From Candidatus Brocadia pituitae (GTDB lineage: Bacteria; Planctomycetota; Brocadiia; Brocadiales; Brocadiaceae): a stretch of 64,000 bases of DNA. A program made the translations under genes and the position numbers. The stretch spans positions 2,550,613 through 2,614,612 of the forward strand of contig AP021856.1 in assembly GCA_017347445.1 (NCBI GenBank), written 5' to 3'. Of this stretch, positions 26,495 through 35,050 are shown piece by piece. Position 1 is the first letter of the stretch. Every line of letters begins with the position of its first letter. A model generated the notes under the pieces. It was not told where the DNA came from and did no database searches. It worked only from the letters and a program-made list of their open reading frames with translations.

Positions 26495-27178
26495 ATGAAA
26501 TTACTCGTTGTTACAGCAACCGTCACTGAGATTAAACCGCTTTTATTATCTCTGGGACAGAGTAAAGCCAAAGAATTCAGCATGAACACGGTTCACTACC
26601 ACCACGTGGACATCGATATCCTTATTACCGGGGCAGGACTGATGCATACGGCCTATTTCATGGGAAAGTCACTGGCAAACAATACCTATAATCTGGCATT
26701 ACAATTGGGAATTGCAGGCAGTTTCAGAAAAGACCTTTTACCAGGTATGGCAGTACATGTCGTGGAAGAGGTCGTGGCGGATTTCGGCGCAGAGGATAAA
26801 GAAAATTTTTTGGATGCTATAGAACTACACCTGTTGACCCCAGATCAATTCCCCTATCATGCTGGTAAATTGTTGAATAAAACCCCAGATTCGGCGTATG
26901 GAGTATCAGCGCTCAAAAAGGTAAAAGGTATTAGCGTCAATAAAGTTCACGGTTACCAATACAGCATTGATAAAATTATTTCAAAATATGATCCTGATAT
27001 TGAAAGCATGGAAGGGGCGGCTTTTTTTTATGCCTGCTTGATGGAGCATGTCCCCTGTCTTCAAATCAGGGCCATTTCAAATTATATAGAGGACAGGAAT
27101 AAAGACCGGTGGAAGATTCCTTTGGCTATCGACAATCTCAATAAAATCGCTTTAAAAATTATTCATCATCTCATCTAA
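26495..27178 (+). CDS. mqnB: futalosine hydrolase (MqnB)
   Basis: 227 residues of the nucleoside phosphorylase/hydrolase fold. It opens MKLLVVTATVTEIKPLL, has ITGAGLMHTAYFMG and LALQLGIAGSFRKDLLPGMA, and ends with the base/ribose-binding ESMEGAAFFYACL and IRAISNYIEDRN. MqnB cleaves futalosine to dehypoxanthinylfutalosine in the alternative menaquinone pathway. The placement 90 bases before mqnD makes the pathway assignment strong. Other genes of the route (mqnA, mqnC, mqnE) are not in the window. Confidence 0.93.
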   Translation: MKLLVVTATVTEIKPLLLSLGQSKAKEFSMNTVHYHHVDIDILITGAGLMHTAYFMGKSLANNTYNLALQLGIAGSFRKDLLPGMAVHVVEEVVADFGAEDKENFLDAIELHLLTPDQFPYHAGKLLNKTPDSAYGVSALKKVKGISVNKVHGYQYSIDKIISKYDPDIESMEGAAFFYACLMEHVPCLQIRAISNYIEDRNKDRWKIPLAIDNLNKIALKIIHHLI

Positions 27179-27268
27179 CACTGATGCAACCGTAAAGAGT
27201 TCTCGTGAAGATTCTCCATAAACAAAAACCGGCAAAAAGGCATTTTTTACAAAGTACAACCTGACCTT

Positions 27269-28096
27269 ATGAAATTAACCCTTGGTATTTCTCCCTGTCC
27301 CAACGACACCTTTATCTTTGATGCTATGGTAAATAAAAAAATTGATACGGAAGGATTGTCGTTTAAATTAGTCGTGAACGACGTGGAAAAACTCAATATA
27401 CTCGCCCTTCAGCATGCATTAGACATCACAAAACTCAGCTACCACGCCTATGCTCATGTAATAAGCCATTATCTTTTACTAGATGCAGGGAGTGCCTTGG
27501 GTAAGAATTGCGGACCATTATTCATTACAAAACCAGAAAAACAAAAAAGTGACTTCAAAGGTCTGAGTATCGCAATTCCCGGGAAATATACTACCGCTAA
27601 TTTTTTATTGAGCATGGCATTTCCCCTGATAACAAATAAAGTAGAAATGCTCTTTTCAGATATCGAAAATGCAATCGTACACGACAAGGTAGATGCAGGC
27701 GTCATTATCCACGAGAACCGGTTTACCTATCAGGAAAAAGGACTGGTCAAAATTATGGATCTGGGGGCATATTGGGCAACAGAAACAGGGCTCCCCATCC
27801 CTTTGGGTGGAATCGCCATAAAACGAAGCATCCCCGCTGAAATCGCACGAAAAGTGAATCGCATGGTAAGAAGAAGCGTGGAATATGCTCTTGCCCATCC
27901 TGCAGCATCAAGGGACTTTGTCAGATGCCATGCCCAGGAGATGGACGAAATCGTTCGAAATCAGCACATCCAGTTATACGTTAATAACTACAGTGTTGAT
28001 TTGGGTGAAATCGGAAGGGAAGCAGTCAAATCACTTTTTGCATGGGCAAGAAGAAATAAATTGATCCATGATACGCACGAAAACACCTTTCTTTAA
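27269..28096 (+). CDS. mqnD: 1,4-dihydroxy-6-naphthoate synthase (MqnD)
   Basis: 275 residues, standard length. It opens with the family hallmark LGISPCPNDTFIFDAM, followed by DITKLSYHAYAHV, LDAGSALGKNCGPLF, AIPGKYTTANFLL, VDAGVIIHENRFTYQ, and GLPIPLGGIAIKR. The protein has a periplasmic-binding-protein-like fold and converts cyclic dehypoxanthinylfutalosine to 1,4-dihydroxy-6-naphthoate. Together with mqnB upstream it shows that the host makes menaquinone by the futalosine route, fitting an anaerobic respiratory planctomycete. Confidence 0.95.
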   Translation: MKLTLGISPCPNDTFIFDAMVNKKIDTEGLSFKLVVNDVEKLNILALQHALDITKLSYHAYAHVISHYLLLDAGSALGKNCGPLFITKPEKQKSDFKGLSIAIPGKYTTANFLLSMAFPLITNKVEMLFSDIENAIVHDKVDAGVIIHENRFTYQEKGLVKIMDLGAYWATETGLPIPLGGIAIKRSIPAEIARKVNRMVRRSVEYALAHPAASRDFVRCHAQEMDEIVRNQHIQLYVNNYSVDLGEIGREAVKSLFAWARRNKLIHDTHENTFL

Positions 28097-32784: not shown

Positions 32785-33221
32785 TCCGGTGAGGAGATCG
32801 GATTCGTCTGAGCAAAGATAATGGGAGAAAGGAGTACGAATAGATTCAACGAGTTGGAGCTGGATCTACCTCTTCTTACTATTTGCTTTTTAGATTTTTC
32901 ACGGATAAACGTAACACTAGCCGGAAAAACACCGCAAAGTAATAAAAATATATTATTCAGACACTACATTGAAATCCCCACATTTAATTTCTAACCATAT
33001 CAAAGGGTTACGACTTTTGCTTGCCTAATTTTTACCCTTTTTCCACCTTTTCTATGACGATTTTTTTGAAGTTGGGTTAAGACTTCCCTGTAAGAAATAC
33101 CTCAAAATTAGAAATTGACAATCCGCTTTTTTGCACCTATAATTCTTAAATATTAGTTTGTTACCTATTTAAACTATTTGCTACATTCCCTAATTGTGGC
33201 AATTTATTTGAGGAGTTTGCG
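32785..33221. other. intergenic region upstream of the siroheme-decarboxylase operon
   Basis: 437 AT-rich bases with stops in all frames. It must contain the promoter for the operon beginning at 33222. No repeat copy, RNA structure or clear promoter box could be supported. Confidence 0.45.
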
Positions 33222-34112
33222 TTGGAGTGGGATAAGTCCGCATCTTCGTTGTTGGAGAAAGTTCCTCCCTTTGTGCAAAAGACTGTTCGTGAAAAGGTAG
33301 AAACCCTTGCCCGTGAACGCGGGAAAACCATGATAACCGAGGCGGAAGTTATGGCCGCACGCGAGTCGTTTATGAGCAGGCAGCAGAACACCACCCCAAC
33401 TCAGGGTATTGCTGCTGCACATAAACCTACAGACAATAAAAAACTCGCTATCCTCAAAAAATATCCTAAGTATTTCAATAAAGACGGTAACCCCGTACTC
33501 TATCAAATAAATTCCTGCAGGGGTGCAGAGGTACATTGCCCTTTTCTTATTACTGATTCTCATGTCCTCGCTGATGCAATCAGGAACCGGCTGGAAAAGC
33601 TGAAATTTACTGAAAAACTCATAAATAAAATTGAAGGTCAAATCCTTCCTCATCATACCATGAAACTTGCCGTATCAGGATGTCCGAACAGTTGCTCCAT
33701 GCCGCAAATTAAGGATTTTGGCGCTCACGCCATTGAACCTGTTTGTGTAGACCCTGAATCCGAATGTATTGAGTGCATGAAATGCGTGGAAACCTGCAGG
33801 GAGGATGCAATTACGGTAAAGGACCGTCAGGTATCCATTGATATGGAAAAATGTGTGCACTGCGGACTGTGCGCTAAGGTATGCCCCAGTGGGTCAATAA
33901 AGTCCGGAATGAAAAAATACCGGGTGATGATCGGCGGAAAAGTGGGACGTCATCCTAAATTTGCCGTAGAAATATTACCCCAAGCAGATGAAACCATGAC
34001 CCTGAAGGCTTTAGATGTCTGCGTGGACATAATCGTTTCGAGCAAGACTGAACGTCGCTTTCGAACTCTGATAGAACAACAAGGAATTGAGGAAATTAAA
34101 AAAAGAATATGA
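33222..34112 (+). CDS. PCP_red / sulfite-reductase-like iron-sulfur protein of the ahb operon
   Basis: 296 residues from TTG at 33222, with GAGGAG six bases upstream. Residues 1-50 (DKSASSLLEKVPPFVQKTVR, ITEAEVMAARESF) look like a PCP_red domain, the small helical module at the end of light-independent protochlorophyllide reductase and some siroheme proteins. Residues about 95-170 are half of a nitrite/sulfite reductase: CRGAEVHCPF and LAVSGCPNSCSMP give the CX6C...CX3C siroheme/[4Fe-4S] pattern. Residues about 180-225 are a 2x[4Fe-4S] ferredoxin (CIECMKCVETCRED, CVHCGLCAKVCPSG). Its last bases overlap the ahbA-like start (ATGA). I infer an electron-transfer or siroheme-handling role in heme or heme d1 synthesis; a full reductase seems unlikely because the other half is missing. 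Confidence 0.8.
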   Translation: MEWDKSASSLLEKVPPFVQKTVREKVETLARERGKTMITEAEVMAARESFMSRQQNTTPTQGIAAAHKPTDNKKLAILKKYPKYFNKDGNPVLYQINSCRGAEVHCPFLITDSHVLADAIRNRLEKLKFTEKLINKIEGQILPHHTMKLAVSGCPNSCSMPQIKDFGAHAIEPVCVDPESECIECMKCVETCREDAITVKDRQVSIDMEKCVHCGLCAKVCPSGSIKSGMKKYRVMIGGKVGRHPKFAVEILPQADETMTLKALDVCVDIIVSSKTERRFRTLIEQQGIEEIKKRI

Positions 34113-34576
34113 TACTCTCCGATACCGACAGAAAGATACTGCACCGCTTGCAATCCAACCTGCCTCTTGTAACAAGACCATTCCTGGAGCTCAGCAAAGA
34201 GCTTGACATCGATGAGGATACCATCATCGAACGCATCAAATTCATGATTGCAAAGGGATACGTGAGGAGGCTTGCACCCATTATTAATACCCAGGCCATG
34301 GGCAGAGAGGCGACCCTTGCCGCGGTAAAGGTTCCGGAAGATCGCATTGATGAGGTGAGTGCGATCATCAATGAATACAGTGGCGTTTCCCACAATTACC
34401 TGCGGAAAGGCAGAGACAAACATATTCCTTACAATATGTGGTTTACCATGTCGGCTAAGGACGACGAGGAACTCCACAGCAGATTAAAAGAGATTGAAAA
34501 CCGGACGGGACTCACCGTTCGAAGTATGCCTACAACAAAGAAATTTAAAATTGGCGTTCGTTTTAAAATATACTAA
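34109..34576 (+). CDS. ahbA: siroheme decarboxylase subunit, AhbA/NirD-like (AsnC fold)
   Basis: 155 residues of the Lrp/AsnC-like siroheme decarboxylase family. The N-terminal winged helix (DTDRKILHRLQSNLPLVTRP) is followed by an AsnC ligand domain with GYVRRLAPIINTQAMGREAT, SGVSHNYLRKG and YNMWFTMSA, the active-site regions that bind siroheme. AhbA/AhbB convert siroheme to 12,18-didecarboxysiroheme, on the way to heme (Ahb pathway) or heme d1 (Nir pathway). The start overlaps the upstream gene and the next paralogue begins three bases after the stop. A versus B, and Ahb versus Nir, is not certain. Confidence 0.88.
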   Translation: MILSDTDRKILHRLQSNLPLVTRPFLELSKELDIDEDTIIERIKFMIAKGYVRRLAPIINTQAMGREATLAAVKVPEDRIDEVSAIINEYSGVSHNYLRKGRDKHIPYNMWFTMSAKDDEELHSRLKEIENRTGLTVRSMPTTKKFKIGVRFKIY

Positions 34577-34579
34577 ACT

Positions 34580-35050
34580 ATGAAAAATAAAAAAGAAGAC
34601 ATCGACGTTAAACTCATTAAACACATACAGGAAGGTCTGCCTGTCACAAAAACCCCGTATAAAGACATTGGGCAGGCGCTGGGAATGTCAGAAGATGAAA
34701 TAATACAAAGGCTCAAAAAACTCTTAGAGGATGGAAAGATCAGGCGTCTTGCCGCCTCTATTGCCCACCGGAAGATCGGTATCAATGCCAACGCCATGTG
34801 TGTATGGAAGGTACCAAAAGAGCAGGTTGATGAAGTAGGTGAGATCATGGCCAGCTTCGAAGAGGTAACACACTGTTACGAACGCCCCACCTATCCCGAC
34901 TGGGAATACAACGTCTTTACCATGATCCACGGTTACACTGACGCTGAATGCGAAGCCGTAATTCAAGCTATTAAGGAAAAGACAAAGTTAAATGATTACG
35001 TCGTCCTTTACAGCGAAAAGGAATTCAAAAAGGTCGGGGTAAGGATATAG
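34580..35050 (+). CDS. ahbB: siroheme decarboxylase subunit, AhbB/NirL-like (AsnC fold)
   Basis: 156 residues, paralogue of the preceding gene. The N-terminus has a winged helix (VKLIKHIQEGLPVTKTPYKD, EIIQRLKKLLEDGKIRRLAA), and the C-terminal domain has HCYERPTYPDWEYNVFTMIH, the AhbB-type signature whose His/Tyr residues line the siroheme pocket. With the neighbour it should form the heterodimeric decarboxylase. The genes that complete the pathway (ahbC/nirJ radical SAM) do not follow; an ABC exporter does, five bases later. Confidence 0.9.
   Translation: MKNKKEDIDVKLIKHIQEGLPVTKTPYKDIGQALGMSEDEIIQRLKKLLEDGKIRRLAASIAHRKIGINANAMCVWKVPKEQVDEVGEIMASFEEVTHCYERPTYPDWEYNVFTMIHGYTDAECEAVIQAIKEKTKLNDYVVLYSEKEFKKVGVRI

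Follow-up and report, generated by a model that had tools for sequence, protein, structure and literature searches.

Organisation of the locus, its leader and the heme route

The window (the whole stretch of DNA that was analysed, 64,000 nucleotides) belongs to a 4.08 Mb genome consisting of a single contig, and it carries three genes in a row, here called the trio: gene 1, whose protein has its nearest named relatives in Candidatus Brocadia, followed by ahbA and ahbB (Table 1). The sequence GAGGAG, a candidate ribosome-binding site, stands upstream of the TTG start of gene 1. The initial annotation had described gene 1 as overlapping, and translationally coupled to, both decarboxylase genes. 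For ahbA the overlap was borne out, with the ATGA at 34109-34112 containing both the stop codon of gene 1 and the start codon of ahbA (4 nt overlap), but ahbB begins 3 nt past the ahbA stop and does not overlap. At window positions 26495-28096, a nucleoside phosphorylase-like gene is followed by a menaquinone-biosynthesis gene (PF02621), possibly parts of a futalosine pathway.

Table 1. Features of the trio locus, with coordinates given as positions in the window
Feature	Coordinates	Strand	Remarks
Sigma-70 consensus promoter of the trio, TTGACA-17-TATAAT (predicted)	33115..33143	+	12/12 pattern match
Inverted repeat / leader hairpin directly 5' of the ribosome-binding site	33178..33202	+	Conserved in the Brocadiaceae leaders examined
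Gene 1, PCP_red + half-size NIR_SIR + 2x[4Fe-4S] ferredoxin protein	33222..34112	+	296 aa, TTG start
ahbA, siroheme decarboxylase subunit alpha	34109..34576	+	155 aa; NF040708, 141.3 bits (cut-off 140)
ahbB, siroheme decarboxylase subunit beta	34580..35050	+	156 aa; NF040707, 207.4 bits (cut-off 125)

The predicted promoter ends 78 nt upstream of the gene 1 start codon. All 21 Brocadiaceae leaders examined, the window included, match the consensus at 12/12 positions, upstream of a conserved TTG start codon; the nine Scalindua leaders all match at 11/12. Between the promoter and the ribosome-binding site, the Brocadiaceae leaders share the inverted repeat TTGCCGCAAT-loop-ATTGTGGCAA, a motif confined to the trio leader in the DNA examined (extra matches were the opposite strand of the same leaders). 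Because the arms change on one side at a time, in most cases preserving G-U or A-U pairs, and because the loop varies in length, an RNA hairpin fits better than a fixed protein operator. No compensatory pair change was found among the Brocadiaceae leaders, and the hairpin had no match in Rfam. When compared to shuffled sequences, the copy in the window folds no better than the shuffles (z -0.18), and the copies of relatives gave z values of -1.8 to -2.8. The repeat may possibly act as a regulatory RNA or as an operator.

The AhbA and AhbB proteins agree with the known siroheme decarboxylase in that both pass their family cut-offs and keep the active-site residues, so that this activity is predicted for the pair. 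The structure paper on the Desulfovibrio desulfuricans enzyme (PMC4145669) names His115 and Arg119 of AhbA and His98, Tyr100 and Arg102 of AhbB as the residues that coordinate iron, contact the substrate and take part in catalysis. In the window, AhbA H95 and R99 align with His115 and Arg119, and AhbB retains H98, Y100 and R102 at the aligned positions. The pair is single, its members being the only PF17805 proteins of the genome, and ferrochelatase (PF00762) was not found in any of seven Brocadiales genomes, this one included, by a search that was positive in another planctomycete and in control genomes. These organisms therefore appear to make heme by the siroheme route. AhbC and AhbD were recognised solely by family scores and sequence. 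Anammox bacteria depend on many heme proteins. The siroheme-dependent heme pathway itself is known; what is new, and what sets this operon apart from the known siroheme decarboxylase genes, is that in anammox bacteria they are preceded by a third gene, which in the window overlaps ahbA. No account of a third gene in the ahbAB operon was found in the open-access literature (subscription papers were outside the search), in agreement with the initial annotation, which had placed gene 1 outside the described Ahb and Nir sets.

Domain composition and predicted substrate site of gene 1

The three parts that had been proposed for gene 1, a PCP_red-like N-terminus, a half-size siroheme-[4Fe-4S] region and a 2x[4Fe-4S] ferredoxin, were all recovered by Pfam above the curated cut-offs: PCP_red (PF08369) at residues 3-47 with 47.5 bits, NIR_SIR (PF01077) at residues 95-295 with 45.8 bits, and several Fer4 models at about residues 179-227, which makes the ferredoxin an insert within NIR_SIR. 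The other half-domain, NIR_SIR_ferr (PF03460), gave no match in the Pfam search of the protein. The best NCBIfam match was TIGR02912 (sulfite reductase subunit C), which scored 66.4 bits where the cut-off is 324. An AlphaFold2 model built with 34 homologs (mean pLDDT 87) superposes over residues 83-296 on residues 416-615 of Fsr (Z 14.4, 186 residues aligned, rmsd 3.0), and its N-terminus matches two NMR structures of PCP_red-type domains (Z 8.2-8.6). Gene 1 thus has in common with subunit B of light-independent protochlorophyllide reductase a PCP_red domain, by PF08369 match and by fold, but in gene 1 this 45-aa domain stands alone at the N-terminus of a siroheme-type protein, and no nitrogenase-like BchB core was found by Pfam. 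With the C-terminal part of Fsr and with AsrC, gene 1 shares the siroheme-[4Fe-4S] half-fold carrying a 2x[4Fe-4S] ferredoxin insert; it differs from them in having neither an F420 domain nor the PF03460 half, and in the sulfite-binding positions described below.

In Fsr, sulfite is liganded by R355, R423, K460 and K462, and the cluster motif is CX5CXnCX3C (PMC10229431). These positions were mapped by profile alignment to Fsr and by a 113-row family alignment, with the R423 column located from its distance to the first cluster cysteine together with the sulfite reductase column of the family alignment, in which 11 of 12 sulfite reductases have Arg. All 12 cluster cysteines of gene 1 are retained in the family alignment, among them the four of the siroheme cluster (C99, C106, C154 and C158), although C99 and C106 are separated by x6 as opposed to the x5 reported for Fsr, and the GGKxGRxP segment is retained as well. 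In contrast, the R355 region has no counterpart in gene 1, R423 is replaced by Y94 (Y/F/H across homologs) and K460 by T146 (T/S/R across homologs, with Arg in Scalindua only), leaving K148, at the position of K462, as the sole retained ligand. As judged from these alignments, the sulfite-binding site has lost three of its four positions. In Fsr, one protomer binds the cluster and charged residues of the partner protomer chiefly anchor the siroheme (PMC10229431); part of this anchoring region is absent from gene 1. From its sequence, we infer that gene 1 may bind siroheme.

Conservation of the trio in anammox bacteria and the wider family

In a search of 294 genomes of the phylum, close full-length homologs of gene 1 were found in Brocadiales; outside this order, the phylum yielded weaker matches apart from a single distant homolog of full length, in G029 (32%). 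The initial annotation had proposed looking for the trio in other genomes, and there it was indeed found. AhbA follows gene 1 in all 18 Brocadiales genomes whose neighbourhoods were examined, and AhbB is also present in all but two, both of which are cut by contig ends. Counted by named locus, AhbA adjoins gene 1 in 41 of 42 and both AhbA and AhbB are there in 39, the exceptions (L075, L076 and L102) all stopping at contig ends. The trio is kept in Brocadiaceae, in Scalinduaceae and in a third family (f2), and the flanking gene families differ among the three. From the end of gene 1 to ahbA the distance is mostly 9-428 nt in Scalindua and 14-123 nt in f2, as against -4 nt in most Brocadiaceae. 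The persistence of the trio in changing surroundings is the chief argument for a functional link of gene 1 to AhbAB, and it makes a chance co-location unlikely. Eight comparisons of gene 1, ahbA and ahbB yielded a dN/dS value, all within 0.008-0.12 (one gene 1 comparison was saturated), and all three genes evolve under purifying selection. Since the trio also recurs as a unit in other genomes, gene 1 is no chance ORF.

Two assemblies deserve separate mention. In G248, a single-contig genome among those 18, a frameshift interrupts the homolog of gene 1 (L050:4666-5543), either a sequencing error or real. The same-genus assembly G122 has no gene 1, AhbA or AhbB, and because no close ortholog of an ABC transporter found on the trio's contig in G049 is present there either, an assembly gap is the likely reason.

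Three proteins of the genome carry PCP_red, with five copies of the domain between them. Besides gene 1, these are a UspA-like tandem protein with one copy at its C-terminus (L034:337-1674) and a radical SAM/SPASM protein that resembles AhbD/NirJ2 and bears three copies at its C-terminus (L059:1480-3315, that is G000:C1:1732777-1734612). The last of these occurs in Brocadiaceae and Scalindua, and in families f94 and f95 its gene is adjoined by UspA-like genes amid cytochrome and stress-protein genes. PCP_red stands at the N-terminus of gene 1 in two of the three trio-bearing families. In f2, no PCP_red match was found anywhere in nine of nine genomes, and four genomes searched for a close ortholog of the PCP_red radical SAM protein had none; nonetheless, f2 keeps the trio. 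PCP_red was therefore rejected as the basis of the link to AhbAB, and we regard it as an accessory part of gene 1. A special partnership between gene 1 and the PCP_red radical SAM protein was likewise set aside, as their joint absence from f2 can be a single lineage event and the setting of the radical SAM gene in f94 and f95 is that of cytochrome and stress-protein genes.

Beyond Brocadiales, a profile search of the phylum of G298 found close relatives of gene 1 in 77 of 297 genomes, some with PCP_red and some without. These mini siroheme-ferredoxin proteins of other phyla have the same overall make-up as gene 1 and share H144 with it, a residue found in every family row of the 113-row alignment except one truncated copy and absent from the sulfite reductases; at the position of Fsr R423, the wider family mostly has Y or F. 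Their neighbours differ. Genes for hybrid cluster protein (hcp), an HD-domain protein, a 2x[4Fe-4S] ferredoxin or an Rrf2-type regulator lie near about half of them or somewhat more, the neighbours are otherwise unrelated, and no AhbA/B-like ORF was found beside the relatives in the neighbourhoods checked outside Brocadiales (58 with a callable family member). The link to AhbAB is therefore an anammox feature, and the initial annotation's own counter-indications, occurrence apart from ahbAB or next to sulfite-reduction genes, divide along the same line: within Brocadiales neither was seen, and outside it the relatives do occur apart from ahbAB, in one case upstream of asrABC-looking genes. This case, judged from sequence, is a mini siroheme-ferredoxin protein without PCP_red in Desulfotomaculum copahuensis (L126:2766-3656), directly upstream of the asrABC-like genes.

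Divergent relatives with PCP_red, in at least two copies per genome, were also noted (L288 and L289; G416, G639, G530, G619 and G554); of these five genomes, G554 is the only one with AhbAB. A tree splits the wider family from the sulfite reductases (SH-aLRT 99) and unites all Brocadiales members (SH-aLRT 96), by a quick method with no bootstrap and with some long branches. Within the phylum of G298, the wider family tends to share genomes with AhbAB (odds ratio 2.8-7 depending on score cut-off, significant by a Fisher test that ignores kinship), and 19 of the 77 genomes with it have no AhbAB; because kinship is uncorrected, we give this co-occurrence little weight. On the simplest account, a redox protein family of older origin became tied to ahbAB in the anammox ancestor.

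The proposed role of gene 1 beside AhbAB

We consider that gene 1 probably encodes an accessory protein of AhbAB in anammox bacteria, and put the probability of this reading at roughly 65%. A dedicated role linked to AhbAB, as claimed initially, is well supported within Brocadiales by the trio being kept despite changing flanks and by the conserved promoter and leader hairpin, but it does not extend to the relatives outside the order. Further points against the accessory reading are the absence of PCP_red from f2, the 19 genomes with the wider family and no AhbAB, and the missing part of the region that anchors siroheme in Fsr. A part in siroheme supply or reduction, also suggested at the outset, is plausible from the sequence, since the cluster cysteines are kept and the sulfite site is degraded. 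In the mechanism that we propose, gene 1 would be made together with AhbA and AhbB and would hold siroheme at its siroheme-[4Fe-4S] site (C99, C106, C154 and C158), the siroheme sitting on the face left open by the missing NIR_SIR_ferr half. Its own 2x[4Fe-4S] ferredoxin would supply the electrons that keep the siroheme ferrous, and the reduced siroheme, or electrons, would be passed to AhbAB, which would then decarboxylate siroheme on the only heme route found in the Brocadiales tested. That gene 1 holds siroheme, keeps it ferrous and hands siroheme or electrons to AhbAB has, in our estimate, a little less than an even chance; the contact between the partners, the direction of electron flow and the hand-over of siroheme are what we infer here.

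Two rivals come closest to the accessory reading: gene 1 as a plain electron donor, and gene 1 as a protein concerned with NO. As an electron donor only, gene 1 would carry Fe-S clusters and no siroheme and would feed AhbAB or the radical SAM proteins AhbC/AhbD, the electrons given to AhbAB serving to keep bound haem or siroheme iron reduced. Retention of all 12 cluster cysteines would suit such a donor, as would the loss of the covering half that in sulfite reductases helps to hold siroheme. Both the donor and the accessory reading are favoured by the redox dependence of AhbAB from Methanosarcina barkeri, which needs its bound haem in the reduced state for full activity and is 6.5-fold more active with dithionite; the Desulfovibrio AhbAB, active in vitro without such a third protein and not redox-dependent, speaks against the accessory reading (PMC4145669). 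A plain ferredoxin, however, needs no NIR_SIR fold, no four siroheme-cluster cysteines and no GGKxGRxP segment, and we hold this explanation to be unlikely. Gene 1 might instead be a reductase of NO, nitrite or hydroxylamine, a scavenger or a sensor, guarding or tuning heme synthesis; the relatives beside hcp may be such proteins too. Hcp is an NO-stress protein, and in the phylum to which the L115 genome belongs, genes for Hcp, HD-domain protein, ferredoxin and Rrf2-type regulator lie near the relatives. NO is moreover an established intermediate of anammox metabolism (PMC11897245). Yet gene 1 in Brocadiales always adjoins ahbA and ahbB rather than hcp, and three of four anion-binding positions are gone, which leaves this alternative distinctly unlikely.

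Shared transcription with no functional link, the trio surviving in one order by descent, would account for all trio members belonging to one clade and for the relatives elsewhere being unlinked to ahbAB. It fits poorly with a trio kept in three families while flanks, gaps and domain make-up change, and appears to us very unlikely. Gene 1 could also be a functional sulfite reductase merely co-transcribed with ahbAB, given a NIR_SIR domain above cut-off, a ferredoxin insert like that of Fsr and AsrC, and the distant relative upstream of asrABC-looking genes. Against this stand the missing PF03460 half, the loss of three of four sulfite-binding positions and the separation from sulfite reductases in the tree. 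The same genome also has an ordinary small sulfite reductase with both half-domains (PF03460 scores 70.1 bits there), adjoining genes for a cysteine synthase and for DsrE-like and siroheme-synthesis-type proteins (names read from sequence), so that an assimilatory role for gene 1 is unlikely. An ordinary sulfite reductase was therefore rejected as the leading reading of gene 1, and the sulfite reductase explanation as a whole is extremely improbable.

Returning to the accessory reading, its most far-reaching form is that gene 1 is a third component of siroheme decarboxylation, a reductive siroheme carrier that hands siroheme directly to AhbAB and is encoded in a hairpin-controlled operon. We offer this form tentatively and regard it as doubtful. 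If it is true, siroheme would be passed from cofactor to substrate by a carrier derived from one half of a sulfite reductase. No account of siroheme, elsewhere a bound cofactor, being passed on as a metabolic intermediate was found in the open-access literature. Gene 1, as a conserved partner derived from the siroheme-binding half of sulfite reductase, is a concrete candidate for such a hand-on, and would, if our reading holds, show how a sulfite-reductase fold took up another task after losing its substrate site.
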